Source of the DNA: Dyella acidisoli
Lineage (GTDB): Bacteria > Pseudomonadota > Gammaproteobacteria > Xanthomonadales > Rhodanobacteraceae
Assembly: GCF_030160295.1 (NCBI RefSeq)
Contig: NZ_BSOB01000018.1
Coordinates: forward strand, 124,446-188,445
DNA: 64,000 nucleotides
Direction of reading: 5' to 3'
The translations under genes were made by a program, and so were the position numbers. Numbering within the stretch: position 1 is the first letter of the stretch; each line of letters starts with the position of its first letter. Positions 2,472 through 26,832 of this stretch are shown here, piece after piece. The notes under the pieces were generated by a model, which worked only from the letters and a program-made list of their open reading frames with translations, had not been told where the DNA came from and searched no databases.

Positions 2472-2476
2472 CCTCA
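2472..2476. repeat. Left target-site duplication of the Tn7-like transposon (CCTCA)
   Basis: CCTCA immediately precedes the transposon's left TGCGC terminus and is repeated immediately after the right terminus at 26828-26832. A 5-bp duplication is the hallmark of Tn7-family insertion. Confidence 0.9.
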
Positions 2477-2541
2477 TGCGCTTTCACTCATAGTTTGGCC
2501 GCTTTGGCCAAACTATGAGATTTTGGAAGCAAAGTTTGGCC
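2477..2541. repeat. Transposon left end with three TnsB-site-like repeats
   Basis: The terminus TGCGC is followed by CATAGTTTGGCC (2489-2500), its inverted copy GGCCAAACTATG (2506-2517) and a partial direct copy AGTTTGGCC (2533-2541). The first two form a 14-bp perfect inverted repeat (arms 2487-2500 and 2506-2519) with a 5-nt loop. Repeated 12-bp units at the ends are expected TnsB binding sites. Confidence 0.85.
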
Positions 2542-2664
2542 AGAATCGAGAAGCTGGCGCGCGTCCTGCGCTCACCGATGAAGTCAATCACGTAAACCAA
2601 ACAGTCGCCATCAGTGTGCCGATTCCCTGACCAAATCGCCTAGGCGCGCTTCTGACTTCGGATA

Positions 2665-2685
2665 GTGGTCTCCCAGGGAGACCAC
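2665..2685. promoter_or_regulatory. Palindrome just beyond tniQ
   Basis: Two perfect 10-bp arms, GTGGTCTCCC and GGGAGACCAC, flank a single A, 7 bp past the tniQ stop codon. No T tract follows on the minus strand, so it is not a clear intrinsic terminator. It could be a weak transcription stop or a protein site. The rest of 2542-2691 shows nothing else. Confidence 0.4.
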
Positions 2686-2691
2686 CATGCC

Positions 2692-4068
2692 TCATAGATA
2701 CCCGGCGGCACGCCCGCGTTTCAACATGCATCGCTGACTTTTACTCAGCATAGTCATCTCACTTAGATTCTTTATCCTTGCGTGCGTCTTCAGCACCTCA
2801 TTTATCAGAAGCCTCGCGACGCGCTTCTTTATCTCGAAGTTCGAATGAAGATGATCAACAAGCTCATCTTGGCTGCGAAATTCGCCTGCTAGGTAACGAA
2901 GGAATGCTCGGCCCTCGGTGAGCTCGGCTTTGGCTTGGCGCTTATGCTGCTTGTTAGCCTGACGAACTTGAGCCTTGTATTCCTGCTTGTATATCTTGCA
3001 GAGAATAGGTTCCCGATAGCTGAGAAAGCCCTTAGAAACGCCAAGCGCTCGCGCAAATTCGGTAAACGCGACCAGAGGCCGCTGGGGGTATTCGGAGATC
3101 GCTTCAATCAGGCGCAAGCGAACTTGCTTCAACATCTCAGGTGAACGGCGCGGCTTTGGGCTACTGGGGAGTGCTTGATGATCGATCAATAGCTGACCCG
3201 CCGCCTTCGCAGCGCCGCGAGGGTCGGCTAGCACGTCAGGCAATCTTACGCCCGCAACGTGGCAGCGCTTGAGCATGGTCGAAAGTGTCGGTCTCTGCCC
3301 CTCTCGCCATGTCCTGGAAGCAAACTCCGGCCGAGTGTTCTTTACATAGGCCACCAGAGGATTGGCCAGCGCACGGAGCTCGTCACAAAAGATCGAAAAC
3401 GCCCTCGGAACAGTCGAGCTAAGCGATCCATCGGCGATGTTCTGCACTAATGCCCTGCAGTTGTCCTCCGCGAAGCAGGGATGCGGAGCCCTAGTCCATG
3501 TCTCAGGTTGTTGCACCAACGATTCAGAGCATTTTGCACAGCGCGCCATTCCCGCACGAGGATGGTATGCCAGCTGATGGTGGCCGCAGTGGCAACACGC
3601 GTGTTCCAGCGCAACCTGGTGTATCGGGCATCGCTCCATGGGAGCTATCGCCCATAGCAGCCTGTCGTAGTGGGGCTCCCCTCGCCGATCAGACCAATAC
3701 ATACAGGCCGGACACCAAGCTCGCCCTCGCTTTAGCACCCCATGTGCGACGGCATCCGCTGCATCTCGAAGAGGAAGGAGCGTTGTGCGATAGAGATCGG
3801 GCTGGTGAGTCGCAGCGGAGACGACGCGGACGTAGTTCGCCACGGCCTCGCCGTAACCGCAAAGAGGCTGACGGTTGGCCTTGTAAAGAAATACATCATT
3901 GAGCTCGACGGGCACTTCGTTATTTCGCTGCCACCACTCGGCAAGGTGCTTAGCCATAGGGATCATTGTCGTAGCGTGAAGCAGGGCAAATCGATAAAAA
4001 TACGAATGAAATTGCTCAATCTCTTCCGTTTCCCAACCCATGGGCTGTAGCGAGAAATAGTTACTCAT
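2692..4068 (-). CDS. tniQ: TniQ/TnsD-family target-selection protein
   Basis: A 458-residue TniQ-family protein that in Tn7-like elements recognises the attachment site and recruits TnsC. The length is close to TnsD rather than the shorter CRISPR-associated TniQ. Zinc-binding residues follow the family pattern: C119-x2-C122 (WCPAC), C147-x2-H150 (RCPIH), then CCHC near 158-161 and C177-x2-C180. The C-terminal part is rich in basic helices, as expected for DNA binding. The ATG at 4068 is chosen because it overlaps the tnsC stop (GATGAGTAA); a longer frame to 4158 exists but has no support. It is last in the operon tnsAB-tnsC-tniQ and lies next to the tRNA that it probably targets. Confidence 0.88.
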   Translation of the reverse strand: MSNYFSLQPMGWETEEIEQFHSYFYRFALLHATTMIPMAKHLAEWWQRNNEVPVELNDVFLYKANRQPLCGYGEAVANYVRVVSAATHQPDLYRTTLLPLRDAADAVAHGVLKRGRAWCPACMYWSDRRGEPHYDRLLWAIAPMERCPIHQVALEHACCHCGHHQLAYHPRAGMARCAKCSESLVQQPETWTRAPHPCFAEDNCRALVQNIADGSLSSTVPRAFSIFCDELRALANPLVAYVKNTRPEFASRTWREGQRPTLSTMLKRCHVAGVRLPDVLADPRGAAKAAGQLLIDHQALPSSPKPRRSPEMLKQVRLRLIEAISEYPQRPLVAFTEFARALGVSKGFLSYREPILCKIYKQEYKAQVRQANKQHKRQAKAELTEGRAFLRYLAGEFRSQDELVDHLHSNFEIKKRVARLLINEVLKTHARIKNLSEMTMLSKSQRCMLKRGRAAGYL

Positions 4069-5092
4069 CGGCCACCGCCGGATAAGCCGGGAGCGCGCGG
4101 TTGGGTTTGCGCATGAAAGGGCGATGGGTCGCCTTGTCCTTGGTCGATTTAATCCCATCTGCCTGCTTTGCAGGCATATCCGTCGTTAGGCTCGCGAGAG
4201 CCTGCTTGCCCGTAGCGATATCATGCTTGATCGCCTCGTGTTCGTGCCTTAAGGGATAGACGGCGTGCAAGCTGCGTCGGTCGATGGCTTTCGACCCGCT
4301 TAGTGATCGGGCAGCCCACAAGACCTTTTCGAGTAGCCCAAAACATCCGTTGGTGACTTGAAGGAGAGGTTCCGCTTCGTCGAGAAGGAGCGTAGACGGT
4401 CGCGTAGCGACATATTTACTGCAGAACTTCAGGATCCGGTCCCATTCGGCAAGATCATCACTACTTTCCGTATAGGGCGCCAATTCGACACAGATCAAAC
4501 GGCCCGCAAAATGCGCCGAATCGAACAGTCCCCGGTAGGCAAGCTCGTATCCACCGACGAGAACCAAGGTCCGATCGATGGCACCCAAGCACTTGATCGA
4601 TTGGATGACGTTCGTGCGAACGTCTCTATTATTCGTGTGTGTCAGGTGGTGTGCCTCATCGAGCAGGACAAAGGACGTCGACCGGGCTGCGAGCGCCACC
4701 TCAAGCGCCACTCTCATCGTGCCTTCGTCTCTACCCCGCGAGGGCCGGTAGTGATCGAGCTCATCGAACTCGCCGACATGCTCGTACATGGGATGACGAA
4801 CTGCCTTCAGAAGGCTCAAAGTCAAATGCTTTGGTGATATCCGTCCATCGTTGCTCGTTCTTACGACGAGCGACACCCAAGGCATGGCATTCCTGTCTCC
4901 AGTCCGTAGCTCGCGGGAAAGCAACTCGGTGAGGCCCTTGAAGATAAGTGACTTGCCAACCTGAGTCGGCCCCACAAGCGCGATCACTTTTCCACCGGGC
5001 GAACAGCGCACCAGCTCGGTAAATTGGCGTCTCGCTTCGACAAAGTTGCGGTGTTGAAGTGGTGCAGGAAAGAGAATGGGCTTCACCGTCAT
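4061..5092 (-). CDS. tnsC: TnsC/TniB-family AAA+ ATPase, transposition regulator
   Basis: A 343-residue ATPase that in Tn7-like systems bridges the target complex and the TnsAB transposase and confers target immunity. Walker A is GPTQVGKS (41-48); Walker B is SFVLLDEAHHL with D145-E146. The N terminus (FPAPLQHRNFVEARRQF) is typical of TniB-type ATPases. The start codon overlaps the tnsAB stop by ATGA, and its end overlaps tniQ, so the three genes are translationally coupled. Tn7 TnsC is about 550 residues; this compact form is common in elements with fused TnsAB. Confidence 0.9.
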   Translation of the reverse strand: MTVKPILFPAPLQHRNFVEARRQFTELVRCSPGGKVIALVGPTQVGKSLIFKGLTELLSRELRTGDRNAMPWVSLVVRTSNDGRISPKHLTLSLLKAVRHPMYEHVGEFDELDHYRPSRGRDEGTMRVALEVALAARSTSFVLLDEAHHLTHTNNRDVRTNVIQSIKCLGAIDRTLVLVGGYELAYRGLFDSAHFAGRLICVELAPYTESSDDLAEWDRILKFCSKYVATRPSTLLLDEAEPLLQVTNGCFGLLEKVLWAARSLSGSKAIDRRSLHAVYPLRHEHEAIKHDIATGKQALASLTTDMPAKQADGIKSTKDKATHRPFMRKPNRALPAYPAVADE

Positions 5093-7575
5093 TCCTTATC
5101 CATGATCAGGTCGCCGATGTCCTCCATGCGTCCGGTACGGCGCAACTCTTGGACGTCCGTTGCTTTAGGCCTTCGTTGAGCTGGCCTCTCTTTATCAAGG
5201 CTGACGTCGCGACTGAGTGCCGACGCCAGCGCCAACCTCTTGGCCTCGTATGTTTCGAGCTCAGCCTCGAAGGCCAGCGCTTTCGTCAAGCTTCGAAGCT
5301 GCTGGTGAACCGCAGTACGCGCGATGACTTCAAAGGTCGGAAGCGCGGCATGGATCTTCGCTTTCGTACTCCGACAGACGTGCCACGTATTGACCAGGCA
5401 CACGTAGGCGATCGAGCCGTCGAAAGGCTCGATCCTTACTCGAACAGTCTTCTTGGGTCCTTTGTAATTGAAAAGAGCGTGGCAGCCGTACCATGTTTCG
5501 TAGACGCGAATTCCGCGGCCTGGAACGAGTTGATAACTCTCCTCAGGAGCGTCCACCGCCGTCTGAATGAGAAAACTGGTATCGACGACTACCCGCTTCC
5601 CGTTGAACGGGAAAGACGCGTCAGATTTCGCCCGCATTCCCGAGCGGCTATCTAACGCATCAGGTTTGGGTTCATGGTTGTATCCGTTGAATGTATAGGT
5701 TTCGAGCATCTCGGCAAGCTGGTGAAAATTGAGGCGTGCGCGATGGGCCGAGTTAAATTTTCCAGACGCTTTGCGCGCGGATGCGACACCGGGAACGAAT
5801 CCGGGCAATCCCCTAGCAAACTTTTCCTTGAATACCCCAAAGAGACGCTCGACCTCTTTACCAAACCGAGGATCTTCGGGAGGCCGCTGGAATCTTGTTA
5901 TCCCAAGCGTGGCCAGCAATGTCACGAAATGGACACTGTCAAACTCCTTGCCTCCATCGACGATCAGGATCTCTGGCAAGCGCCCATGGCGGCTGGCGCA
6001 GTCTCTGATGACCATCGCACATGAGTTACGGCATGGTGCCTTGTACGACAGCCATATTCCCAGCACCTCGCCGCTGTAGCCATCGACCATGGCTGTAAGC
6101 CATGCCCTGCGTGTGAGGGGGCGACACTTTGCTCGGCCCAACAGCAAAGCGATATCGACCTCGTAGTGATCGATGTGCGCGATCGAAAACGCCCGTGTAG
6201 GGAGCAGTGTTCGGTTGAGGGGATCAATGGATGCCGCAGCAGCGTTGCTTGCCCGACGTCCTCCGCGGATAGCATGGAGGTCAGCCTCGCAGGAATAGGA
6301 GTTGTAGTGGCGGTAGAAGGTTGCCGCTACGACCGGCCGATCGTCGCTGTTCTTTGGGAAGGAACGCCATCGGGAGCGGTATTCCAAGTACCCGTTCGCG
6401 ATTGTGCTGAGGTTTGAATCGCCTTTTGTCTCCCGAATGACGTCATGCATCAGCTGAAGATGGGCGGGAGCGATACGCGCCTTTCTGTTTCCGCAGCGTG
6501 CCCAACGAGGATGCAGAGCGGCCGGATCCCCGCCCGCCTCCCTTAGAGCCTTCCCATACCGGCGCTTAGTCCTTTCGGACTTCTGCGAGAGGTCAGGTAT
6601 CGGATCTATCAGACCACAAGCTGCATACCGCGAGGCGACCTCTTGCACGTGCTGAGGTGCCGGCACGTACTCAGTAGAGACCGTATTTTTTACAGCTATC
6701 GCATCTTTGAATCGGAAACCCGTGCTACCCATCAAACGGGTCAAGCTCGGGTCAGCGGTGACCCAGACGTCAGCAGGCGTGCTTAGCAAACAGTGGTCAA
6801 GATCAACGTGTATGCACCCTTGATCCACCAGCTGCAGAATCGGTGTAACGTCTTCGATATGCAGGCGATCAAGAAGCAGTCTGATCTGTACAACTTCAAT
6901 TTCCCGAACGATCGTGAGGACGCGCGCTCTCAGGCGCACGAGCCTGGGTGTGTCATTAACCTGGCGCACGGTCAGCAACGTTCGTAAGTTATCCGCGCGA
7001 ATAGCAGAAGTATTGCTGCTTGGTATCACGCGATGGTTGATGCCCAGTGCGCGAAAATGCGCCCTCGCCGGCACACAGACGTACTCCTCTTGCTCCTGGA
7101 TCCAATCATTCGCCCGTTGTCTGCAAAGCGCCTCAAGAACTTCATCGTGCTTCGCTTCATAGGCAACGACACAGTCATCGTGAATGACCAGAAAGTCGGG
7201 CGTATGGGGCACTCTCGTCGCGACACCTGATCGATTGGTGATGCAGAGCGGCACGCTCTTAGGCTGGTCATAGATGGCCAGGACATCTCGCCGCCATAGC
7301 ATCTCCAGTAGGAAGAAGTATTCCCCCGACGCCGACTCAACCTGCAACACGACTCCCAAGTCAGGCACCGGCACGTTGCCGATGAGGTTTCGGTTCCGGT
7401 GGACACCAACAGCACGAGCCGGGGGGGAAGAGGCCACCTCCAGCACGTACTTACTCCCCTCTTCCGTCAAACCAAGATCGTCGAGGAGCTCCTCCAAAGG
7501 TGTAGAGCCACGAATGATTGGCGACGAAGGCTGTCCGGGAACTGCTACCTCTATTGCTTCTTGAAGAGTATTCAT
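5089..7575 (-). CDS. tnsAB: TnsA-TnsB fusion transposase
   Basis: One 828-residue polypeptide joins the two Tn7 transposase activities. Residues about 25-200 are a TnsA-like restriction-fold endonuclease, with PHTPDF (D127) and E140-A-K142 forming the D...ExK site that cuts the 5' strand. Residues about 440-700 are a TnsB-like DDE integrase, with D469 (HIDHYEVD), D540 (LIVDGGKEF) and E576 (VERLFG) that cut and join the 3' strand. Having both activities predicts cut-and-paste movement. ATG 7575 is preferred because GGAG sits 6 nt upstream. A GTG at 7677 also has AGGTGAG, but its extra residues look like debris of another gene (similar to the end of the protein at 8830-9147). Confidence 0.9.
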   Translation of the reverse strand: MNTLQEAIEVAVPGQPSSPIIRGSTPLEELLDDLGLTEEGSKYVLEVASSPPARAVGVHRNRNLIGNVPVPDLGVVLQVESASGEYFFLLEMLWRRDVLAIYDQPKSVPLCITNRSGVATRVPHTPDFLVIHDDCVVAYEAKHDEVLEALCRQRANDWIQEQEEYVCVPARAHFRALGINHRVIPSSNTSAIRADNLRTLLTVRQVNDTPRLVRLRARVLTIVREIEVVQIRLLLDRLHIEDVTPILQLVDQGCIHVDLDHCLLSTPADVWVTADPSLTRLMGSTGFRFKDAIAVKNTVSTEYVPAPQHVQEVASRYAACGLIDPIPDLSQKSERTKRRYGKALREAGGDPAALHPRWARCGNRKARIAPAHLQLMHDVIRETKGDSNLSTIANGYLEYRSRWRSFPKNSDDRPVVAATFYRHYNSYSCEADLHAIRGGRRASNAAAASIDPLNRTLLPTRAFSIAHIDHYEVDIALLLGRAKCRPLTRRAWLTAMVDGYSGEVLGIWLSYKAPCRNSCAMVIRDCASRHGRLPEILIVDGGKEFDSVHFVTLLATLGITRFQRPPEDPRFGKEVERLFGVFKEKFARGLPGFVPGVASARKASGKFNSAHRARLNFHQLAEMLETYTFNGYNHEPKPDALDSRSGMRAKSDASFPFNGKRVVVDTSFLIQTAVDAPEESYQLVPGRGIRVYETWYGCHALFNYKGPKKTVRVRIEPFDGSIAYVCLVNTWHVCRSTKAKIHAALPTFEVIARTAVHQQLRSLTKALAFEAELETYEAKRLALASALSRDVSLDKERPAQRRPKATDVQELRRTGRMEDIGDLIMDKE

Positions 7576-7773
7576 CCTCGGCTCCACATCGAAATTCGAC
7601 CAGGTGGTTAGATCGAGATCGGCGAAGTAATGGCCTGGCGCCGGTTGATTGGGTGACGCGCGGCCACGACGAGGCACTTCTCACCTGCTTTCCGATGAAA
7701 AGGCCTTGACTTCGGGGAATAGGGCTCTGAAGATAAGTTCGGGTGGTTGCTTCAATACCCGTCTCACCGAAAG

Positions 7774-7802: not shown

Positions 7803-7825
7803 GTCTCAGCGCCGGTGATTTCGTG

Positions 7826-8116
7826 TTAGTCACTCATGGGACGAACCTCCGTTGGATCCTCGCTGACAGTACGTCGCCCTTGTTGCTTGCTTTCCAGCCC
7901 AAGGCCTGGTGACGCATCTCCTTGGACGGCCGGCTTCATACCGAGGGCAATGGCGATCTGATGCCCGCGGCCACGGGTACAGCGCGACCTGCCCGACAGC
8001 ACTGCGTAGACGGCTTGGCGCGGGTAGCCGTGATCTCGCGCCCAATCGGTCAGCGATATTCCCCTGTCGTAAAACCAGTTTCGCGCCTCTTTGGCGGTGC
8101 GTAGGTGGTCACTCAT
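7826..8116 (-). CDS. DNA-binding protein of the BcepMu gp16 family
   Basis: 96 residues from the ATG at 8116 (a longer frame to a TTG at 8185 is less likely). The core TAKEARNWFYDRGISLTDWA, then HGYPRQAVYAVLSGRS and HQIAIALGMK, is the small helix-turn-helix family typified by gp16 of the Mu-like phage BcepMu. These are presumed regulators of transposable phages and elements. It lies about 250 bp upstream of tnsAB on the same strand, a position suited to a transposition regulator, though that role is inferred from location. Confidence 0.72.
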   Translation of the reverse strand: MSDHLRTAKEARNWFYDRGISLTDWARDHGYPRQAVYAVLSGRSRCTRGRGHQIAIALGMKPAVQGDASPGLGLESKQQGRRTVSEDPTEVRPMSD

Positions 8117-8829
8117 ATCTGATCGCACTGTTGGAAACGGATGCCGCAACTGATTGAGTAGTAGAGAATTTCTTCCGAAAACCAATCCACGACGAAATCG
8201 GGATATCTGGTTAGAAACATGATGATTTGGACGAATATGCGACGAATCACGGTTACACCTACCTGTTGATTGCTTGGTAGTTTCACGTATACGCCTTATA
8301 TTTCAATCACTTACGTTAACATCGACCAAGGTAGCACTCGCCCCGTGACGAGTAAACATGTGCCTTAGCGAACCGGGAATCAGCTCGCTGGGGGATATAA
8401 GTGAACCAAGTGAGAACTGACGCCCTACCCGCTTTCAGTAGCGGGTGGATGCTGGTTGATCGGGGTGGGTACCACACAGACGCCACTTCGGGGCTGGGTT
8501 ATGGGTGGCTGGCTGATGTCACATGGCGCTTGCTTGCTTCGGCCTTGTCACGTTCACGAAGGCGCAACGGATCCACTCGCTCGGTGGCGCCGGCGATCGG
8601 CCAAAGACCTAAGGCAAAGTCATTGCTTGACTAAGATTTCAACCGTCCACCGAGCCCATACAATAGAACTTAAACCTGAAGCGCCCTCGTTTTTCCAGTC
8701 GCTCGAAAGTAGAGGCTGCTGACGACACTCAGCAGAATTTGGATAGCCATTGGGGTCATCAAACTCGTCGAGCAGGCAACTTTCCGAATGGCGGATAAGC
8801 TCATAGCTAAGGCAGAGCCTCTTCGGTCA
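8117..8829. other. Intergenic stretch without a supported gene
   Basis: About 710 bp. Short frames (for example 8401-8634 plus) lack a good ribosome site and family resemblance. The part 8185-8330 is AT-rich and could hold promoters for the regulator at 8116. Nothing else is recognised. Confidence 0.5.
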
Positions 8830-9678: not shown

Positions 9679-9712
9679 ATACGGGCCAAATTGTTAGCAT
9701 TGAGAAATGTCG

Positions 9713-11513: not shown

Positions 11514-11574
11514 GTTCTTCCATCCCAAGATGCGACTATTTGCTCATGTTACCAACGGGCTGATGCTACAGCAT

Positions 11575-12039
11575 CTATGTAGCGGTATGACTGTGGCGCG
11601 GATATCCATTCACGTCACATCGCCAGTCAGAAGGTCGCTTTCTGCACAAGTCCTCGAGATCACTGTCTGTCTTGACCTCGTAGATCCGTACGCAGTCGGA
11701 TTCCACTACGAGATAGTCCGCTGTATAGCTGATGCGCGTTTTTCTTCCCGAAGTGTCGGTGATCGATAGAGGAACGCTCAGAGGCTGGTCATAGACCGCC
11801 CGTAAATCGTCGCGGCGGTCGAGTTCCACTAAGAAAAGGTATTCACCGGAAAGCGATTCGGCTTGTAGCACCACACCGAGCCGCTCCATCGGCACGTCCA
11901 GCACGAGGTTCCGCCGACGCCGTCGCCCTACCTTCCGAGCAGGAGGTGAGTGGCATACGTCGAGTATGTATTGGATGCCCGGCTCAGGCGTTCCAATCCT
12001 TCGCAACTCAGCCTCGGTAATCTGGTTAGCTGACCCCAT
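11575..12039 (-). pseudogene. Truncated second TnsA-like endonuclease domain
   Basis: 154 residues closely parallel the TnsA part of the fused transposase at 5089: shared CHSPPARKVG/ASSPPARAVG, ERLGVVLQAESLSGEY/PDLGVVLQVESASGEY, YDQPLSVPL/YDQPKSVPL and DYLVVE...YEVK/DFLVIH...YEAK. The D and ExK residues are intact. It stops right after the nuclease core with an unrelated tail (NGYPRHSHTAT), with no TnsB part downstream. ATG 12039 has a strong GGGAGGG site, so it may still be translated. Read most simply it is the stump of another Tn7-like transposase operon; a repurposed stand-alone nuclease is the alternative. Confidence 0.75.
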
Positions 12040-16130: not shown

Positions 16131-19100
16131 ATGGCGACGCTGATCATTTTTTTGAGTGATATTCATATCAAGCTTCCAAGCGATCCAATTCTCGCTCATC
16201 ACAAGGAAATTGTGGACGCATCGTTCTCAGACTATTCGGACGGTATAACTGACTGCCATCTGGCGATCACAGGCGATATTGCACAGTCAGGAAAGAAGGA
16301 GGAGTACGAGCTTGCGAAGGCCTTCATAGGAAATATCAGCGATCACGTCTTTAATCGCATTGGGAAGCGCCCAGGCATAGCGCTATGTCCAGGAAATCAC
16401 GATTGTAACTTTTCCGACGACCAAGATGTCCGAAACTTGATCATCGAAAAGATGGACTATCGAGCCGAGGTTAAGCAGGGATTGAGTGATGCCTTGGCTG
16501 AGCCGCTCAAGGCCTACTTTGAATTCGCCGCAGACGTAGCGTCGCCCATCCACGGGCCTGGCAGGTGGACAACTGACTACCGCTTTTCTGGTGACGTCCG
16601 CATCAACTACACCTCCTTGAACGTGGCGCTTACATCTGGACTGCCTGAGCGACAAGGAAAGTTGCTTTTTAGCCTAGCTGCGGACGCAGGCTCTAACGCT
16701 ACAGAATCTGGAATATCGATCTATTTGCTGCATCAGCCACTTAACTGGTTGGTGGCCGATTGCGCGCGCGATGTCGGTGATCTCATTAGCACAAGGGCTG
16801 ACATTGCTCTGTTTGGGCATGAGCACCGGGAGCGCGGATTCGTCGTGGCAGGCTTATATGACGAATCAAAGGTCATCAACTTCAACGCTGATGTCTTGCA
16901 GGATCGCAAAGGCAAGTTGCCCAGTGGGTTTCGCACCGTTCTTATCCAGCGCGGAGGGAAGATCAAGTCATCTAGGTATGTATGGCAGAGTTCTAGCTAT
17001 TTGAGAGACGAAGCGAAGTCGGACGATTCATGGCGCGACTGCTTGAATCAGGAATCTCGGCGCAGCGTACTCTCCTTCAAGAAAGACTTTGTGGCATGGA
17101 TCGACGACATAGGAGCCACCTATGCTCATCGTCGGAAAGAGAGATTAACGTTATCTGATATCTTCGTATGGCCCAACTTGAGGATCAAAACTTGGGACAA
17201 GAGTGCCCAGTCGCTTCTCATCGATGCAGAAGAACTGAGTGCGTCCAAGTGCTTTGACGTCGTCGCGCCGTATGGCGTTGTAACAGTCACAGGCGATGAG
17301 CAGCATGGTAAGACCACGCTCGCAAAGCGATGGCTGGCCAAGCTCAAGTCAATCGGCTTCTTTCCACTCTACGTTGATTGTTCGGATATCAAGTCTATCA
17401 AGGGTCCTTACATCGACCAGAAAGTGAAGGAACTCGTGAAAGGGCAATACGCTTGCGCATCAAGTGACGCCTTTGACCAGCTCGACCCAAAGCAACGCGT
17501 TGTGATCATTGATGACTTCGACGACCTGACCTTTAATAGCGAAGGCAAAGCGGAGATCCTCAAGATCCTCAAGGAGCATTTTGGGACTGTGATCCTTCTT
17601 GTCAGTGACACACCCGGAGTAGAACTCTGGCTGGACAATATTCTGAGCGAGGTGAAATTCTCAAAACAATCATCTTTCCAGTTGCTGCCGATGAACTTCC
17701 AGTCTCGCATGCAGCTCATTGAGAAATGGCTACATATCGGCAACGAGTACAGCTTGGAGCGAGAGGACATCGAGTCGACGGCCACGAGGCTGGGCCGACT
17801 TGTGAGTGATGCGCTGGGTCGAAATCTTGTCCCTTCTGTTCCGCTTTTCGTGTTGATTATTCTCCAAAGAGCGGAATCTGAATCCGAACTGGAGACCGTC
17901 ATCAAGAACGGTTCTCACGGATTTCTATATGAGGCCCTGATCACCCGAGCAATTGGAGAGAAGGTCCCGTCTTTTACCGTGGATACTGCCCAAACGTATC
18001 TTACGAACTACGCCGAGACAATCTATTCGGCGGGTGTGGACGGGCTGAGCCTTCACGACGCAGAGGCCTTTCATCGAGCGCATTGCGATTTCTACGAGAT
18101 TGCCTATAGCTTTGAAAGGACGAAAGTCGAGTTGTGCAATGCGGGCATTTGGCGGGAAAAAACTGGCGTCATTGTATTCGCGTACCCCTATCTGTACTTC
18201 TATTTCGTCGCGCGTTTCTTGGCTAATTCAGCCGACCAACCGAAGCGAATGGAAGTCGTCGAGTCCTTGATTTCAACAATACATACTGAAACTTCGGCAA
18301 ATATTCTGCTTTTCTTGGCACACTTGGGTCGGGACGCGGAAGTCCTTAACAGATTGTTGCAGCACGCTGGAACGGTCATGAGTGATGCTCCCTCCTTTGA
18401 TGCATACGAGGCGGTTTCCGTTTTTCAGGAATATCAAGAAGGCAAGGTGCGCGCAATCTACTATGAAGCCTCGCGCGAGGATGCCTTGAAAATCGCTCAC
18501 GACACGGATTGTGAGAGCGATCCAGTCAATATAGTCTCGACCGGCGCTATTTCGACGGTAAGGGATGTTCAAGAATATGCAACCGAGATAAATAGGTCAT
18601 TTCGTACCCTGCAAGTGCTGGGACAGATTCTTCGAAACCACGCAGGATCCATTGAGAAAGGTAAGAAGCGAGAAATTGCGCTCGCCTGTACGAACCTTGG
18701 TCTGCGTACACTGGGGTCCATGTTGACTGTATTTAAGGACGCGGCGCCAGAGATCATTCAATTGCGTGTCGAGTCGATCATCTCAACTGAGAGGGACAAG
18801 CTCCTTTGGAGGCAGAAGGTTGACGAGCAGCTAAAGGCGATGTCAGGGGACTTGAGCGACCTTATTACAAATGTTGCTGTCGGCACCTTTGTCCGCATTG
18901 CGGGCGCAATCGGAGCGGAGGCACTTGCTCCAACCCTGCAGCACATTCTCTATGAAGGTAATGACCCAACTAAGAAGATCGTTGGGCTAAGCGTGAAACT
19001 GGAACACTTCGCAGCGTTTCCTCGCAAGGAGGTCATGGAATTTGTTCCGAAGAAGCCCACGGTCAAGGATGTTTTGGCAGTCGCGCTTGTTCGAGGATTT

Positions 19101-19220
19101 GTGTTGCGAAGGTTCTACATGTTTCCCGATGCAGCTGAACTGAAGCGCGAGGTCTGCACAGCGCTGAATATCGCTCGACTCCCCTTCCAAGTGAAGAGCC
19201 TTGAGAGTAACAAGCAGTAG
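16131..19220 (+). CDS. Metallophosphoesterase-STAND NTPase, probable antiviral sensor/effector
   Basis: A single 1029-residue protein. Residues 1-240 are a calcineurin-like phosphoesterase with all metal motifs: D10-I-H12, G48-D49, GNHD (88-91), H201 and GHEH (229-232). Residues about 380-620 are a STAND/AAA-type NTPase with Walker A GDEQHGKTT (388-396) and Walker B VVIIDDFDD (457-465). The C-terminal 400 residues look all-helical, as the sensor repeats of STAND proteins do. This N-effector, central switch, C-sensor order is that of Avs-like antiviral STAND proteins; a phosphoesterase effector would cleave nucleotides or nucleic acid. Monocistronic, strong ribosome site. Confidence 0.82.
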   Translation: MATLIIFLSDIHIKLPSDPILAHHKEIVDASFSDYSDGITDCHLAITGDIAQSGKKEEYELAKAFIGNISDHVFNRIGKRPGIALCPGNHDCNFSDDQDVRNLIIEKMDYRAEVKQGLSDALAEPLKAYFEFAADVASPIHGPGRWTTDYRFSGDVRINYTSLNVALTSGLPERQGKLLFSLAADAGSNATESGISIYLLHQPLNWLVADCARDVGDLISTRADIALFGHEHRERGFVVAGLYDESKVINFNADVLQDRKGKLPSGFRTVLIQRGGKIKSSRYVWQSSSYLRDEAKSDDSWRDCLNQESRRSVLSFKKDFVAWIDDIGATYAHRRKERLTLSDIFVWPNLRIKTWDKSAQSLLIDAEELSASKCFDVVAPYGVVTVTGDEQHGKTTLAKRWLAKLKSIGFFPLYVDCSDIKSIKGPYIDQKVKELVKGQYACASSDAFDQLDPKQRVVIIDDFDDLTFNSEGKAEILKILKEHFGTVILLVSDTPGVELWLDNILSEVKFSKQSSFQLLPMNFQSRMQLIEKWLHIGNEYSLEREDIESTATRLGRLVSDALGRNLVPSVPLFVLIILQRAESESELETVIKNGSHGFLYEALITRAIGEKVPSFTVDTAQTYLTNYAETIYSAGVDGLSLHDAEAFHRAHCDFYEIAYSFERTKVELCNAGIWREKTGVIVFAYPYLYFYFVARFLANSADQPKRMEVVESLISTIHTETSANILLFLAHLGRDAEVLNRLLQHAGTVMSDAPSFDAYEAVSVFQEYQEGKVRAIYYEASREDALKIAHDTDCESDPVNIVSTGAISTVRDVQEYATEINRSFRTLQVLGQILRNHAGSIEKGKKREIALACTNLGLRTLGSMLTVFKDAAPEIIQLRVESIISTERDKLLWRQKVDEQLKAMSGDLSDLITNVAVGTFVRIAGAIGAEALAPTLQHILYEGNDPTKKIVGLSVKLEHFAAFPRKEVMEFVPKKPTVKDVLAVALVRGFVLRRFYMFPDAAELKREVCTALNIARLPFQVKSLESNKQ

Positions 19221-19526: not shown

Positions 19527-20852
19527 TCAAGGAGTAAAAGCCCCCTGAGTGTTGTATTCAACGAACACCGTAACGCCCGATTGGCCACCGCCGCCATTGT
19601 TGATGCCACCGGAGAGGTTGCCCGAACAATCGTTGTCGATGATTGAATAGTTCACTATGGTCGAGTTGCTAATATTGATCCCATAACGCTGCGAATTGAT
19701 GATCGTAGTGGTATTGATGCCGTTATACGTAGGGCCTATGCGACAGCCGTTAATATGGATGCGATCGGCGCCCGACAGCACCTGGATTCCATCGGTCGCA
19801 CCTGGGTTCGCACTTGAGTTGCCAGTGATTACACTGTCGTTGATGCGCACATCTCGGCAGCCGGTATCGATGAGAATACCCGTCGAGCCGTTGTCGATCA
19901 CCTGCGCATTGATCTTCAGGGTTTTGACATTCTTGAAGTACATACCAACATTGGGAATGGATCCCGCCCAGCAGTTGGTGAGGAAGACGCGACCCAGGAA
20001 TTGCGCGGTGCCATCGAAATACCAGCCACAGTTTGCCGAACTCGGGCCACCCGCGCCATCGCACAGGACGTTAGTGAAAAATAGGTTTGCTAGGTAGCTC
20101 CACTCTGAATTGGTCATGGCCGAAATGGCTACTTCAAACTGCGCGATGTTAGCGTCAGTTACAATGACCGTATCACCAGAAATAAGGTCCAGACCATAGC
20201 CATTGTTGGTGGGTCCACCTTGGAAGTTTAGACGGCTAAATTCCAAAATTCCGTATTGTTGACCGGTTGCAGACTGCGACACATTAACGGTAAAGCCACT
20301 TCCGCTCATGCCTGCACAAGTGATGTCGCAAGCACCACCGCCCGTGCAGCCCTCGCCCCAGGACGCGAGCGAACAGCCGTTATAGGCATCAATGCGGCGC
20401 AGCGCATGGCGGCCATTGGCGAAGCTGAAGAAATTGCCGCCCGTGACATAGCCTGCCGAACGCCCCTCCACCGTCATGTCTTGTGCGGTGAAAAATCCTG
20501 CGCTCGCAGTCATGAGCGATCCGTTAGAGCTGTTGAGGACCAGGGCTGTAGCCGGACCGTCCCCCTGGAAAGTGAGGCGATTAGGGAGACCCCAGGTTAA
20601 GTTTGCTAGTAGATAGCGGCCGTAGGGGAAATAAAGCGCGAGGTCACCGGTCGCCGCACTCAGTACCGCCTGTATCGCCGCCGAGCTGTCAGAGTTGCCC
20701 GTCGGATCGACACCAGAGAGCGTCGTAACATTGAACGTGGGGATGTAATTTGACGGAGTTTGGGTGGTCTGCGCCTCAGAAATATTGGGCTTGAGTATTA
20801 AGGCCCCGCCGATAGCAAGCGGAGCAGCTCCAAGAAATTTGCGCCTCTCCAC
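19527..20852 (-). CDS. Exported right-handed beta-helix protein (pectate-lyase/GH28-like)
   Basis: 441 residues starting at GTG 20852 with GGGAGG upstream. The N terminus ERRKFLGAAPLAIGGALIL is a twin-arginine signal, followed by an Ala-rich cleavage region (SEAQTTQ). The early motif DPTGNSDSSAAIQAVLSAA is the entry of the pectate-lyase-3 family. The rest is rich in N, G, I and V in the spacing of parallel beta-helix coils (INDSVITGNSSANPG, INISNSTIVNYSIIDND). It would act on a polysaccharide outside the cytoplasm or serve as a depolymerase. The substrate is unknown and the role in a defence island is unclear. Confidence 0.72.
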   Translation of the reverse strand: MERRKFLGAAPLAIGGALILKPNISEAQTTQTPSNYIPTFNVTTLSGVDPTGNSDSSAAIQAVLSAATGDLALYFPYGRYLLANLTWGLPNRLTFQGDGPATALVLNSSNGSLMTASAGFFTAQDMTVEGRSAGYVTGGNFFSFANGRHALRRIDAYNGCSLASWGEGCTGGGACDITCAGMSGSGFTVNVSQSATGQQYGILEFSRLNFQGGPTNNGYGLDLISGDTVIVTDANIAQFEVAISAMTNSEWSYLANLFFTNVLCDGAGGPSSANCGWYFDGTAQFLGRVFLTNCWAGSIPNVGMYFKNVKTLKINAQVIDNGSTGILIDTGCRDVRINDSVITGNSSANPGATDGIQVLSGADRIHINGCRIGPTYNGINTTTIINSQRYGINISNSTIVNYSIIDNDCSGNLSGGINNGGGGQSGVTVFVEYNTQGAFTP

Positions 20853-21187: not shown

Positions 21188-21718
21188 CTAGATGTTACCG
21201 ATTGGACCTTCACTCGACCTACCGTTTTCATAAAGCTTGTGACGTGATGCCCAGTCTTTTGCCTCGTTCAAGATAGCGTCCTCAAATAATTTGTGATCCG
21301 CCGGTCTATCCCGCATTTCGCTAGCCGCATAAATAAAGGGATCGAGTTCATGAAACTCTCGCTCGTGACTTCGCAGTACGACATTCCAGAGAAACGTGGC
21401 GCCTTCCATCGGTGTGATAGCCCGGTCAAGAATCGAGATGGAAATTTTCCCTGCGAGCCTACGTATGGCATCTCTATTAGAGATATCGCCACCCTCTTCC
21501 TGTAATAGGAAGCTGTTGAACTTAGTCCTAATGCTATCCGACTCATCCTCCGAAAGAACAAGTATGTCGATAAGCTGATTGGCAACTATGCCGCAAGAAA
21601 GAAGTTCAGACGCTAAGGCCTGAACTTCTTCCACGTTGATCATCCCTAATTTCCACAGTGCCAGCAGGTCCGGCACGTCGGCGGAAAAACGGGGAACATT
21701 ACTTAAATTTAAATCCAC
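21188..21718 (-). CDS. Putative immunity protein for the Rhs toxin
   Basis: 176 residues, acidic and largely helical (LLALWKLGMINVEEVQALASELL). It is not a family I recognise. Its ATG lies inside the last 20 bp of the rhs gene, the placement expected of a cognate immunity gene. This position is the main evidence for the role. It has no signal peptide or membrane segment, so it would neutralise a toxin acting in the cytoplasm. Confidence 0.6.
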   Translation of the reverse strand: MDLNLSNVPRFSADVPDLLALWKLGMINVEEVQALASELLSCGIVANQLIDILVLSEDESDSIRTKFNSFLLQEEGGDISNRDAIRRLAGKISISILDRAITPMEGATFLWNVVLRSHEREFHELDPFIYAASEMRDRPADHKLFEDAILNEAKDWASRHKLYENGRSSEGPIGNI

Positions 21719-24700
21719 TTCTAACTCCCGTTAGCAGCTCTTCCCAGTAATGAATCACGATGTTTTCGCCTGTGACTAGATCCTGATGCACGTGTTCCAT
21801 CTTTGCATAAACGTCTTCAGGGAACGCCGGATCTTTTATTCTTCCGGCCATGATGCGCGCTCCTGCGCCGGCCTTGGCCTCATCAAGAGCGAGTTTCTCC
21901 GCCAGGCTTAAGGCCTCCGTTCTGACTGGAATTGGCGCTGTGCCAGTAAGGGGCGATCCCACCACATATGTGTAGTCGCCCGGACAACCTGGCACCTCCA
22001 CAAAAAGCGCAAATTGAGTCCCCATAAAGAAGCGCCTTAGAGGACCACCATTGACCGTCGTCAAATAAGCGCCCGCATCTCTACTTGCATCGGCCAAGCT
22101 TCCAAATATGTCCCCGGGATTGAGACCTGATGGGTCCGCAAGGGTTATAGGGCTTTCCTCCGCATAAGCATACGTATTGACTCCCGCAGCCAAGCCGAGT
22201 GGATCGGATTCCAGATACCGTCCATTACTCGAATCGTAATCACGAAATCCGTTGCTCCAGTTCCCTGTAAAGTGATCGTAGACCTGCCCTGGCGAACCCA
22301 CGTCTACGTCAGCAATACCTTCGACCACTACTTCTCTATCGAAAGCACTGTTTTGTGCGCGCCAAACGACTGATCCACCACTGTTTGTAATTTGCTCAGG
22401 CCGCCCCGTGTGATCATCCAGCATGTAGTACAGGTTAGGGGTGCCACTACCTATCTGATTGAGCAGCGCTATCGGTTGGCCATTTAAATAAATGTAGTTA
22501 TTTGCATTAACCACACCCGACGAAGATGTCAGTTCGCCGATGAGATGACCGTCCAAATCGTAACCATACATCCACAACCCCAAGGGGCCATTGGTTAGGC
22601 TCAACTGTCCTAAAGCATTCACCTGGTAGGTTGTAGTTCCGCTAGGATACGTCGGACACTGATAACTCGTTTCGCAGTTTGTCAGCGCAGCGCTTCGACT
22701 CACGCTGTTGAGACGATTAAACCCGTCGTATGTGTAAGTCGTGGTCACTCCACTGACTGAGTCAGTCGCCCTGTTCCCGTTTCCATCATAGGTATAAGCG
22801 TGCGAGCCACGCGACGCAATCTGGTTACTATTCGTGGCGATGGCAACAGTGTCGTTCGTCATCCAACTCTGCTGAGTACGATTACCATTCGCGTCGTAAT
22901 TGAAGAAAATGGGCGCGACCTGAGTTTGGCTAGTCAAGCGATTCAGATTGTCATAGCCAAATCCCTGCGTTCCAGCATATACGGAGTCAGTCTTTGCAGT
23001 GATCCGATCGAGGTTGTCCCAGGTATAAGCTAGGCTCTGTATCGTTGTAGTACCCAGCGTCGAGCCAATGCTCTTGAGCCGCTCATCCTGATCATATGTC
23101 TGAGTTCTAGTTATACCGTTTCCATAAGACCAGCTCAGAGGCCGACGAGCCGCATCATAGATAACGTTACTTACCACATTGACGCTTTGGCTTCCGTACT
23201 GAAGATTTACGTTCGTTATCTGATCATCGGTCCAAGCATAGTTAACTGTGTATGCCGTTCCGGACATCATTTGAGTGAGACGATTCATTCCGTCATAACT
23301 GAATGACGTCGTGGACGAACCCAAGAAGGAATTGTCCGTACGGGTAGCAACCAAACCTTCGATGGAATAGGTCAAAGATGAGGAGCCTCCTCCATTTTGA
23401 CCGGCGTAAGCACAGAGCTTTCCCTTACCATAGGTGCAGGAATCATACGTGTATGTATACGTCTGAGAGCCCGCAGTCACTGCTGTGACGCGATTAAGCG
23501 TGTCATAGGTATAAGATGCGACGAATCCATTGTTCGTTGTCTTGCTTGTGACACGCCCATAAGGGTCGATCGAGTAGCTTGTGGTTCCCGAGTCAGGACT
23601 CGTTACTCCCCACACATCTCCAAATCCGTCGTACTTGTAATACGTAGTGAGTCCACGGGGATCGGTTATCTGAAGAGGATTGTCGCCAAAATCATACAAA
23701 TATAAGGTGGATTTTCCAGTTGTATCGACAATGTACTGCAATCGACTGACAGAATCGTACTTATATGTTGTTGTGTTACCGACAGCATCTGTAACGGTAG
23801 AGACGTTCCCGTTTGGATCATACGAATAGGTCCGGCTCTGCCCGCTGTTGCCGTTAATTACTAGCGGTCGCCCAAGCTCATCATAAGTTGCATGAGTTAT
23901 TAAATCGGGAGAGGTCTGCCCCTTTCGGGTGTAACTTGTGGTAGTGACATCACCGTTTATGTCATACCCGTAATTCTTACTTATCACTGCACCCGATGGG
24001 CCAGTCCACATTGAGGAGGTCAGCTTGAAGTCCGGGTCATATACGTACTGAGTGACTTCGCCATCAAACGCTACTAATTTGGATACCTGCCCAGAATTGG
24101 GATCGTAATTTATGGACTCCGTGTTTGTTACGCCCGCATGTGTGTGCGATATAGAAGTGACTCGTCCAAACGCATAGGTGTAATTCAACACATCCCCGTT
24201 GGCTGATGTCTCAGTAGTCGGCAACCCCATTCCGGTGAAGTTGTTGTAGCTCGTGGCCTGACCTAGAGCATTCACAATACTGGTTACGTTACCCAGGCTG
24301 TCGTAGTTATATGTGAGCGTATTCGCTCCACTGGGTGATGGCAGAGTCGTTACAACAGCAGATACCATGCCGTTCGGGTATAGCGAGTAACTGTATGTAG
24401 TAGTCCGCGACTGATTCGCGACACCATTGCTAGCCAAATTCGTCTGAGTGACGCTCGCTAGCCTGCCTTGCGGCGTGTATGCGAACGAGGTCTGCAAGTA
24501 TCCGACTACGGTAACGGATAAAAGTCGATCAGTGCCTGGCGTCGTATCCCATACAAAGTTTGTCACGCGCTGAAAGGGGCCTGGACTTTCTACCTTTTGC
24601 AGAATTTCACCATTGACCGCATATGTGTAGTTAGTGATATTACCGTCATTATCGGTATCTGATTGAACATTTTCATTCGCATCATAAGTGCGAGAACTAA

Positions 24701-26162
24701 ATGTCGCTGCGCAGTGCACGGACGCCTGGCCAGTTATCGACAATATGTTTGAATTTGCATCGAACTGATATACAGAAACGTGGCCAAGCGGATTAGTTAC
24801 GGTGGTAACCGGACCTGTACTATTGCTGCCGTAGCTAATGTTCGTTTGTTGCGTACCATCAGCCATTTCATCCTGAATAGCTTGGCCGACACCGTTATAG
24901 CTTGTCAGATCTTGCGCGATGCCATTGTAGTCAACCTCGGTCAGCGCGTATTGGTAATTACCAAAGCCATATGCGCCGCCGGCGTCACTTTTGTACTTAT
25001 AAGCAACTGACGTTGATCCGCCGGGGAGCGGGAGGGTCGCGGTCTGGAGTTCACCTATCAAATATCTCGTTCCGGACATATCACCAATTGTTCCATATGG
25101 AATAATTGTGGAGTACGAATACGAGTTGCCTGCAGGATCAACAACCGTCAATTGCCTAACGATATCGTAGGCTGAATTAGGACCATCAGGAACTTTGGTA
25201 TCGGTCCAGTGCAACGAGACAGTCTGCCCAGATGTATGGGAAACCACTACGTCTGTCGCATCAGGATAAGCAAAGGTCCAGCCCACGCCAGCCAAATCCT
25301 TGATCGACGTCAGTGTGAAATAAGTTCCATTGTAAAGTGCATTGCTGAACGTAAGGACCTTGGAGTCCTCGTCATGAATGACATAAGACCCGTCGCTATT
25401 GCGCGTCATCGTTGCGATACCATTTTTAAGTTCGCCAAACGATGCAGTTCCGTCGCTATGGGCGGTACCGGGCCCAAATTGAACAATCGTGCCGTCAGGG
25501 CGGACTAGCACGAGAGGACAAACACTTGATGTAGAGGTGTAATTGCAAGCCCCACCTTGCGTCACATCAAGGAACAGCAAGTAGTCGTAGCTTGTCCTCC
25601 ATCCCCCTGCACGCGTACTAGAGAACGATCCGGTGTTATATACATTGGAGCTGTAGTACCGAGTAAAACTCAGCCCCATTTCACCAGAGCGAGCAAAATC
25701 AGTTACCGATTCCACTTTAGCTCCGGTAGCCAACGAAATGGGATCAGCTTTCTTGCAGTCATCCTTAGGCAACTTTCCATTAACTGTAATACGGGCGAGT
25801 GTCGTGACTGAGCCTGGTGTCTTTCCAACTTGGAGCGGCGGCGAGACATTCTGGGGTGGAGGCATACCGATAACTGACCCCGCCCCCAACTGCTCCTGTA
25901 CATCTGGTGCACGGTTGGCAACAACATCCACCCCAGGTAGCTTTTGGGGGCCCGATGCCATCGCGCCTCCAGAACCGCCACCGCCACCGCCATAATCTGT
26001 GGGCACATCGGTTTCCGCAAATACATTGCAACTAGCCACCAGCAGGAAGGCGCAGAAAGATGTCGCAAACTTGCTAAACCAGGAATTCGTCGAACCATTA
26101 GTCCGCAAACCACGAACAATTGCGGACTCGGTTCCGAGCCTTGCCTTAAGGACTGTCATCAT
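21699..26162 (-). CDS. Rhs/YD-repeat polymorphic toxin with variable C-terminus
   Basis: 1487 residues from ATG 26162 (AAGGGG just upstream). A hydrophobic export segment (ATSFCAFLLVASCNVFAE) and a Gly-rich linker come first. A DUF6531-type entry follows (SLATGAKVESVTDF), then many YD repeats (YTYDSLNRL-like) building the Rhs cocoon. The core ends at SNGRYLESDPLGLAAGVNTY and DPSGLN; the last 140 residues are the toxin tip, ending KMEHVHQDL...IHYWEE. The tip family is not recognised; the conserved H and W residues suggest a small enzyme. Downstream overlap with the immunity gene fits a toxin-immunity pair for contact-dependent competition. Confidence 0.88.
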   Translation of the reverse strand: MMTVLKARLGTESAIVRGLRTNGSTNSWFSKFATSFCAFLLVASCNVFAETDVPTDYGGGGGGSGGAMASGPQKLPGVDVVANRAPDVQEQLGAGSVIGMPPPQNVSPPLQVGKTPGSVTTLARITVNGKLPKDDCKKADPISLATGAKVESVTDFARSGEMGLSFTRYYSSNVYNTGSFSSTRAGGWRTSYDYLLFLDVTQGGACNYTSTSSVCPLVLVRPDGTIVQFGPGTAHSDGTASFGELKNGIATMTRNSDGSYVIHDEDSKVLTFSNALYNGTYFTLTSIKDLAGVGWTFAYPDATDVVVSHTSGQTVSLHWTDTKVPDGPNSAYDIVRQLTVVDPAGNSYSYSTIIPYGTIGDMSGTRYLIGELQTATLPLPGGSTSVAYKYKSDAGGAYGFGNYQYALTEVDYNGIAQDLTSYNGVGQAIQDEMADGTQQTNISYGSNSTGPVTTVTNPLGHVSVYQFDANSNILSITGQASVHCAATFSSRTYDANENVQSDTDNDGNITNYTYAVNGEILQKVESPGPFQRVTNFVWDTTPGTDRLLSVTVVGYLQTSFAYTPQGRLASVTQTNLASNGVANQSRTTTYSYSLYPNGMVSAVVTTLPSPSGANTLTYNYDSLGNVTSIVNALGQATSYNNFTGMGLPTTETSANGDVLNYTYAFGRVTSISHTHAGVTNTESINYDPNSGQVSKLVAFDGEVTQYVYDPDFKLTSSMWTGPSGAVISKNYGYDINGDVTTTSYTRKGQTSPDLITHATYDELGRPLVINGNSGQSRTYSYDPNGNVSTVTDAVGNTTTYKYDSVSRLQYIVDTTGKSTLYLYDFGDNPLQITDPRGLTTYYKYDGFGDVWGVTSPDSGTTSYSIDPYGRVTSKTTNNGFVASYTYDTLNRVTAVTAGSQTYTYTYDSCTYGKGKLCAYAGQNGGGSSSLTYSIEGLVATRTDNSFLGSSTTSFSYDGMNRLTQMMSGTAYTVNYAWTDDQITNVNLQYGSQSVNVVSNVIYDAARRPLSWSYGNGITRTQTYDQDERLKSIGSTLGTTTIQSLAYTWDNLDRITAKTDSVYAGTQGFGYDNLNRLTSQTQVAPIFFNYDANGNRTQQSWMTNDTVAIATNSNQIASRGSHAYTYDGNGNRATDSVSGVTTTYTYDGFNRLNSVSRSAALTNCETSYQCPTYPSGTTTYQVNALGQLSLTNGPLGLWMYGYDLDGHLIGELTSSSGVVNANNYIYLNGQPIALLNQIGSGTPNLYYMLDDHTGRPEQITNSGGSVVWRAQNSAFDREVVVEGIADVDVGSPGQVYDHFTGNWSNGFRDYDSSNGRYLESDPLGLAAGVNTYAYAEESPITLADPSGLNPGDIFGSLADASRDAGAYLTTVNGGPLRRFFMGTQFALFVEVPGCPGDYTYVVGSPLTGTAPIPVRTEALSLAEKLALDEAKAGAGARIMAGRIKDPAFPEDVYAKMEHVHQDLVTGENIVIHYWEELLTGVRSGFKFK

Positions 26163-26424
26163 AATTCCCCTTAGTGTGAGGCGAGTATGGACCCGCCTAC
26201 CGAAATCGCTGCTCAATCTATAATAGACACGTATTGTCCGAATGTAGAATCTTTTGACCTTCGCTGGAAAAATGTAGCCACTCAGGGGGCTAATCCGGTA
26301 GAGATGGTATCGTCACGCCCACGCTGCGCTCTCGGCTTGCGAAGATCGAAGCATTGGAGAATTTCTTGGCAGAGAAGATCTCCGAGCCGGAGTGGCGGCC
26401 TCCGAGGAGACCAACGCACCAGAG
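26163..26424. other. rhs promoter region
   Basis: About 260 bp upstream of the rhs start in the right part of the transposon. It contains the ribosome site AAGGGG and AT-rich blocks (26216-26280), but no certain promoter. Confidence 0.4.
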
Positions 26425-26721
26425 TTAGTGACCCTTGCAGGCTTCGCGAATGTTTTTGTTCGCCTGCTCGATGGCGACCGGTGTATCGAAAAGTACATTG
26501 ATGAATTTTTGGGTGACGCCTCGAGCGCCGCTGCATACGTAGAAATTGACGGCGCTAGGAGTATCAAACCCAGGACCTGGGCTTTGAAACTCATTTGATC
26601 GCTCCCGCAATAGGATCCCGGAAACGGTAGAAGTGCCGCGCCATTCTGCGATTGAGGTCGGAGCACCTATAGAAAATACGGTGACCCACTTGAACAGGTT
26701 TCTTGAGATGGCCCGCCACAA
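26425..26721 (-). CDS. Possible small protein near the transposon right end
   Basis: 98 codons from a TTG. The C-terminal two thirds (NFYVCSGARGVTQKFINVLF then DTPVAIEQANKNIREACKG) read like a real protein. However, no good ribosome site is seen and no family is recognised. It could be a gene remnant. Confidence 0.3.
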   Translation of the reverse strand: MWRAISRNLFKWVTVFSIGAPTSIAEWRGTSTVSGILLRERSNEFQSPGPGFDTPSAVNFYVCSGARGVTQKFINVLFDTPVAIEQANKNIREACKGH

Positions 26722-26779
26722 GCGATCGGGGCAACGTGACCGCGTGATAAAGTCATCAGATCATGCGGTTGCGCGTGCC

Positions 26780-26827
26780 GGCCAAACTATGCGAGACATC
26801 AGCGGCCAAACTATGTGAGATCGCGCA
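26780..26827. repeat. Transposon right end with two tandem TnsB-site-like repeats
   Basis: GGCCAAACTATG occurs at 26780-26791 and 26804-26815, both in the same orientation, 24 bp apart, followed by 7 bp and the terminal GCGCA. This mirrors the left terminus base for base over TGCGC and CATAGTTTGGCCGCT. Confidence 0.88.
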
Positions 26828-26832
26828 CCTCA
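26828..26832. repeat. Right target-site duplication (CCTCA)
   Basis: Exact copy of 2472-2476, directly abutting the right terminal GCGCA. Confidence 0.9.

Follow-up and report, generated by a model that had tools for sequence, protein, structure and literature searches.

The 64,000-nucleotide stretch of Dyella acidisoli DNA considered here (positions 124,446 to 188,445 of contig NZ_BSOB01000018.1; hereafter the window, in whose coordinates features are given) carries a complete Tn7-like transposon of 24,351 bp, from 2477 to 26827, that starts 23 bp past a tRNA gene with the anticodon CAU. Judged from comparison with related sequences, this element, in which TnsA and TnsB are fused, very probably homes by protein guidance, with its target selector TniQ predicted to find the 3′ exon of the tRNA gene and insertion to follow about 25 bp downstream. 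An earlier interpretation made from the letters of the DNA alone (the sequence-only reading) had proposed protein-guided targeting of a tRNA gene, and the proposal is supported by the recurrence of the tRNA, the spacing and the homologous tniQ genes described below, no CRISPR array or guide-like match having been found in the element.

The element and its attachment gene

The left terminus of the transposon, from 2477, reads TGCGC-TTTCACT-CATAGTTTGGCCGCT, and the right terminus, on the reverse strand and reaching 26827, reads TGCGC-GATCTCA-CATAGTTTGGCCGCT, the two agreeing over TGCGC-N7-CATAGTTTGGCCGCT in inverted orientation; immediately outside them lie the two copies of the 5-bp target duplication CCTCA (2472-2476 and 26828-26832). 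The tRNA-proximal end (2477-2541, plus strand) comprises the terminus TGCGC and three TnsB-like sites (2489+, 2506- and 2530+), the second of them inverted, a layout also present in two other genomes, G115 and G090, and the tRNA-distal end (26780-26827, minus strand) comprises two such sites (26804- and 26780-) and the terminus. When the window was searched for CATAGTTTGGCC with at most two mismatches, 10 matches were obtained against 3.81 expected, a number that none of 100 shuffles reached, and all four exact copies are located at the two ends of the element; these repeats presumably serve as TnsB binding sites. Inverted TG...CA ends, several TnsB-like sites and a 5-bp duplication mark the element as Tn7-like, and the full delimitation by ends and exact duplication that had been read from the letters is confirmed by these features together with the tns genes.

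The transposition genes all lie on the minus strand at the tRNA-proximal end and run toward the target, as the sequence-only reading had described. The gene nearest the tRNA, tniQ/tnsD (2692-4158), encodes the target selector, a protein of 488 aa with a Pfam TniQ match above cut-off. A profile of 11 TniQ rows aligned with the TnsD chain 8v32_J (E 3.5e-46; 11-401 of 448 positions), running through the C-terminal part, which identifies a TnsD-type TniQ with a long C-terminal part and upholds the earlier description of the protein as TnsD-sized; an AlphaFold model of the element's own TniQ (two sequences) had a mean pLDDT of 49.3 and was too poor for use. Next comes tnsC (4061-5092), for an AAA+ regulator with Pfam AAA_22 and TniB matches above their cut-offs, whose best solved chains, the TnsC of 8fcu and 9g0f, are equal and weak (both E 1.3e-4). 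The third gene, tnsAB (5089-7677), encodes a TnsA-like endonuclease fused to a DDE transposase; the Pfam matches to rve and Tn7_TnsA-like_N are both below the curated cut-offs, and the best solved chain, 9bw1_M (E 8.6e-59, phmmer), covers both parts. By domain and chain matches, the element thus has a TnsA-type endonuclease, a DDE TnsB and an AAA+ TnsC, and tnsA and tnsB are, in correction of the sequence-only reading, one fused gene, a single 862-aa open reading frame (ORF) with both parts. In the Pfam scan of 10 element ORFs no tnsE was named, five further ORFs having been scanned in PADLOC only.

Among solved chains, those closest to TniQ and TnsAB, as well as one of the two that match TnsC equally well, come from entries 8v32, 9bw1 and 8fcu. 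We take all three to be type I-B2 PmcCAST, a CRISPR-associated transposon (CAST), and 8v32 and 9bw1 are presumably the published CAST structures from the Peltigera membranacea cyanobiont. That publication, a conference abstract, describes TnsC-TnsD-att and TnsABCD structures of a type I-B CAST from this cyanobiont (PMC12585508).

The attachment gene (2127-2453, plus strand) consists of exon 1 (2127-2162), an intron of 251 nt (2163-2413) and exon 2 (2414-2453), with boundaries set from the sequence and from intron-less relatives. The intron lies in the anticodon loop and belongs to group I (Rfam RF00028, 66.8 bits, matched at 2150-2405); it had been overlooked in the sequence-only reading, and ARAGORN at default settings found no tRNA anywhere in the window. 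Group I introns are known in bacterial tRNA genes, and the structure of the Azoarcus pre-tRNA-Ile intron has been solved (PMC3984707, in excerpt). The 3′ end of the tRNA is present in 15 of 16 genomes of the genus, with a group I intron by Rfam at 11 of the 15 sites and no match at four; G070 has an intron-sized insert by ARAGORN, yet no Rfam intron match. Given that the best E. coli matches (81.6% identity) are annotated as tRNA-Ile in all five of the matches listed, we call the gene tRNA-Ile(CAU), a probable identity. The same assignment in the sequence-only reading therefore stands as far as the CAU anticodon and the E. coli matches go, and other labels differ: ARAGORN names the intron-less homologues tRNA-Met(cat), and among the eight phage relatives listed at 89.5% identity five are annotated tRNA-Met and three are unannotated.

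Recurrence of the site and the recognition sequence

Searches covered 197 genomes of the family and 398 of the order. The TniQ of the window matched in 29 of the 197 family genomes, from which 30 loci were taken with about 1.5 kb of flank each. Five of these loci contain a tRNA, all of them from the top five genomes (the window's own, G000, with G090, G176, G113 and G115), and each time it is the same CAU tRNA, a transposon end lying 22-26 bp beyond the position of its CCA. A four-row TniQ profile matched 12 of the 398 order genomes at E<=1e-30, and in G424, a genome of another family from the order search, the same tRNA has an end 23 bp behind it. Independent genomes thus show insertion at an almost constant distance from the tRNA gene, and the check proposed in the sequence-only reading, a search for the ends and tniQ beside tRNA-Ile(CAU) in other genomes, finds them in G424 and in these five strongest family relatives, own genome included. 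Exact duplications are present in G113, G424, G115 and G154 as well, and at all seven sites with tniQ and tnsC the operon is directed toward the tRNA, with the tniQ-side end facing it. Dyella sp. C11 was the sole relative from a related-locus search of genome contigs; against plasmids, TniQ matched 18 records, all below 60% identity and none with 80% coverage.

On a TniQ tree of 34 rows, the label tRNA-Ile, carried by eight of them, takes 3 changes against a shuffled mean of 7.3, with none of 500 shuffles as low, and the 18 rows beyond a 100/100 branch hold no row so labelled. The labels are incomplete, several rows being known by short flanks only, and G402 owes its label to an intron-bearing tRNA at a distance of 3.4 kb, tentatively taken as tRNA-Ile. 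After the tree had been made, the same tRNA was seen on the tniQ contig, with tniQ directed at it, in G401 (about 9.5 kb), G106 (13 kb) and G011 (18 kb). In G135 (loci L018 and L066) and G090 (L050), a second or incomplete copy of tniQ occurs near another tniQ of that region, a hint of repeated insertions at other places as well.

Ends behind the tRNA were also counted. A pattern of the tRNA end joined to GTTTGGCC at 28-54 bp occurs in 14 of the 197 genomes and in 8 of 26 genera, and the reversed-pattern control gave 0. Scoring with an end consensus at a threshold of 13 (G001, with 12, is just below) placed Tn7-type ends at 8 of the 15 genus sites and 11 of 40 other sites, where the background of 0.0074 per 20 positions predicts about 0.1 and 0.3, respectively. 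The base for this census was the 141 of 197 genomes with a tRNA match, the genus sites being handled separately. Thirteen already fetched sites were set aside, 11 of them with an end (G070, G030, G140, G176, G113, G090, G027, G126, G095, G005 and G106) and two without (G081 and G136), and the 40 sites come from alternate genomes among the first 79 that remained, one site each, chosen regardless of transposons; at least three of them are partial tRNA copies (G179, G162 and G086). By eye, at least three end families occur at the same position. At one locus of G115 (L055, 1271-12510), several left and right Tn7-type ends are stacked behind one tRNA.

The spacing bears on what is recognised. Over 25 end-bearing sites, a set that omits sites without CCA and G401, the 18 bp after CCA are unconserved (0.28-0.52 per column), and the spacing between discriminator base and terminus has a median of 26 with the intron (n=8) and 27 without it (n=23, ranging over 24-29 plus one 34; Mann-Whitney p 0.43). 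Given an unconserved spacer and a spacing independent of the intron, the likely target of TniQ is the 40-bp 3′ exon including CCA (2414-2453, plus strand), which stands at an almost constant distance from the insertions. The TnsD site of Tn7 is 36 bp long, from +23 to +58 of the insertion centre (PMC2918618, in excerpt), and by analogy the same footprint transferred here would span 2416-2451, just within the exon. We envisage that the TnsD-type TniQ would read the 3′ exon of the tRNA-Ile(CAU) gene as DNA and load TnsC, and that TnsAB would excise the element, cutting both strands, and place it, with a 5-bp stagger, some 25 bp downstream, the tniQ-side end toward the tRNA. The tRNA would be left intact, and a safe place would be gained for the cargo, which includes Lamassu, DS8 and further candidate defence genes. 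The element is presumably still active.

It could be argued that the whole tRNA gene or its fold is needed, and not the 3′ exon alone, since wherever a tns operon lies directly alongside, the tRNA gene is whole, and the partial copies with ends (in the own genome, G162, G179 and G171) could be older insertions displaced by the entry of a prophage or island. However, the intron separates the exons by about 250 bp in seven Rfam-confirmed end-bearing hosts (G000, G092, G066, G115, G154, G140 and G126) with no detectable change in spacing, and we consider such a requirement improbable. Nor do we favor recognition of a prophage attachment (att) region, with the transposon landing here only since a prophage was present. 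The element does sit inside a prophage, between a tRNA-borne attL and the integrase gene int, but relatives keep the spacing without any conservation of the 18 bp behind the tRNA in the 25 sites, no shared phage arm being visible; prophage-att targeting was rejected on these grounds as highly improbable.

Homing by a hidden guide resembling a CRISPR RNA, directed against the tRNA gene as in type V-K elements, would fit the statement, in the excerpted text of PMC11406308, that the att sites of type V-K CASTs are usually tRNA genes. The element itself speaks against it. In agreement with the sequence-only reading, no cas match was found in 15 element ORFs scanned by Pfam (10), PADLOC (10) or both; the element has no direct repeats of at least 20 nt within 120 bp, hence no CRISPR array was found; the region 1991-2476 shares with it no stretch of 14 nt or more, and one of 13 nt where 0.34 were expected; and the alignment of the TniQ profile with TnsD extends past the part common with the small CAST TniQ 8fcu_P. 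With no Cas effector, array or att guide found, classification as a CAST was rejected, and we regard a hidden guide as highly improbable.

Several observations weigh against homing of this TniQ group to the tRNA. On the tRNA-Ile side of the tree, G446 and G374 are not beside this tRNA, G032 has no tRNA match, G196 has tniQ on a different contig, and G005 has its operon directed away from the tRNA. Further, tniQ lies 13 and 18 kb from the tRNA in G106 and G011, the latter with no end at its tRNA, and is broken by stops in G424. The sequence-only reading had named homologous tniQ elements at unrelated sites as evidence against it, and on this point only distant relatives count against it, G446 and G374 lying off this tRNA. 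Among 28 tRNA-side ends followed up, tniQ and tnsC were found in seven and no tns genes in 19 within the stretch fetched, G115 having a tniQ fragment and G192 a weak tnsAB fragment, and an exact duplication with an inverted end was found in 5 of the 28, most stretches being at most 20 kb. The census consensus was written after most sites had been inspected, and two of its 11 non-genus matches (G179 and G162) are behind partial tRNA copies. Finally, CCTCA is absent from the relatives with an empty site, G081 and G136.

Layers at the site and the cargo

In correction of the sequence-only reading, the DNA to the right of the element (26833-64000) is a prophage, into whose left end the transposon is inserted. 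It includes int (27028-28269), a primase gene (28721-31432) and head and tail genes, with terminase, portal, capsid, sheath, tape measure, baseplate and endolysin encoded alongside the integrase, and is of the contractile-tailed kind; RHS-repeat-like ORFs lie toward its right part. The prophage extends beyond the window, its putative attR lying about 5.5 kb farther on. When attR was sought with words of 25 and 21 nt from the tRNA end, only the tRNA itself was matched, and shorter words revealed a 15-bp copy of the tRNA end on the same contig near 193955, which is the putative attR.

Three integrase relatives were examined, of which G081 (75% DNA identity) and G136 (67%) have int directly behind this tRNA and G094 does not show such an arrangement. 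In the former two the junction is empty, with 216 (G081) and 196 bp (G136) from CCA to the start of int against 218 bp in the window once the flanks of the transposon are joined. The joined flanks align with both, and therefore the prophage came first and the transposon later. The sequence-only reading had expected a single CCTCA in an empty-site genome; colinearity and length in G081 and G136 agree with a single copy, but the CCTCA sequence is not conserved there, and no genome with the exact empty site turned up.

A second Tn7-type end, of the kind in G154 and of another family, lies 26 bp past the discriminator base of the attR copy. No partner end or tns genes were found for it in the stretch read, one candidate end having fallen inside the end itself. 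The simplest order of arrival is an older transposon, then the prophage, then the present transposon. The same interleaving of transposon with prophage or island is suggested for G162, G179 and G171: behind a full tRNA each has 17 kb that look like an island, followed by a partial tRNA copy and, 27-28 bp past the discriminator base of that copy, a Tn7-type end. A more speculative picture, conceivable but doubtful, is that one tRNA exon would serve two unrelated integration machineries in rotation, prophages or islands recombining into it and TnsD-type transposons landing about 25 bp behind it. Prophage entry would restore the landing place and the transposon would part the prophage att core from its integrase, so that the site would build up as a legible stack, with prophages held fast by transposons that carry anti-phage cargo.

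Within the element, a helix-turn-helix regulator gene of the BcepMu gp16 family lies upstream of tnsAB (7826-8185, minus strand; NCBIfam TIGR04111 above cut-off) and is a possible regulator of transposition; over 78 aa its product shares 69% identity with a stretch adjoining the tns genes of G104. Beyond it are a candidate defence gene, PDC-S19 (10455-11528, minus; PADLOC E 2.1e-163), and the remnant of a second TnsA N-terminus (11575-12039, minus), 57% identical to the element's own TnsAB over 121 aa and, by this likeness, apparently the relic of another, related transposon. There follow on the plus strand a Lamassu-type LmuA-LmuC-LmuB operon (12308-15710; ABC-3C and CTD6, by PADLOC and Pfam) and a gene for the DS8 anti-phage protein, a phosphoesterase-STAND NTPase (16131-19220; NCBIfam NF053861 above curated cut-off). 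The remaining ORFs are on the minus strand: one with a signal-like start by eye (19527-20852), with no PADLOC or PHROG match, and a region (21188-26216) with no PADLOC match that holds a small ORF (21188-21718) and a large one (21699-26216) which, from its translation, we take to be RHS-repeat-like.

Relation to known systems

The element would represent a compact homing system without Cas genes, composed of three genes and the ends, and the group I intron provides a natural experiment that narrows its probable target to 40 bp. One gene has been used repeatedly, by several end families and by a prophage, and the order of arrivals can be read; moreover, with defence genes present in the element, the site deserves a search for anti-phage systems. 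Among the titles and abstract beginnings of the open-licence papers listed, none was seen to concern it.

Tyrosine-integrase prophages also use tRNA genes, and the one in the window uses the same tRNA, but with a different enzyme they recombine within the tRNA end rather than behind it. In Tn7 the right end abuts the target. Here the operon runs toward the target and the left end abuts it, under the convention, as given in the excerpt of PMC11406308, that the right end is upstream of the tns genes. Like Tn7 at glmS, the element makes a 5-bp duplication and inserts about 25 bp from the TnsD site, here a predicted one, at the 3′ end of a conserved gene, and for Tn7 the sequence downstream of that site is not required (both from excerpts of PMC2918618). 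Unlike Tn7, it has a fused TnsAB and targets a tRNA gene rather than the glmS attachment site, and we therefore do not assign it to Tn7 proper.

Its nearest known counterparts, as placed by the closest solved relatives, would be TnsAB-fused, tRNA-homing elements related to type I-B2 and I-D CASTs. According to the excerpt of PMC11406308, I-B2 and I-D CASTs derive from elements with fused TnsAB and a tRNA-using TnsD. As far as the excerpted sources describe them, the I-B2 (PmcCAST, Tn7744) and I-D (McCAST, CyCAST) members share with the present element fused TnsAB, TnsC, a long TnsD-type TniQ and a tRNA att site, but they are cyanobacterial, whereas the present element is from Lysobacterales (the named relative being Dyella sp. 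C11), has a single TniQ and has no Cas genes that could be found. It also differs in using tRNA-Ile(CAU), often with a group I intron, at a spacing mostly of 20-26 bp past CCA; CyCAST homes 30-33 nt past tRNA-Leu (PMC10293859, in excerpt). The sequence-only reading had called a tRNA gene a less usual site for Tn7-type elements, which holds in part only: tRNA-homing TnsD proteins with fused TnsAB had already been published (PMC11406308), and locations downstream of tRNAs also appear in the excerpt of a survey covering 6,549 Tn7-like elements (PMC8649781).

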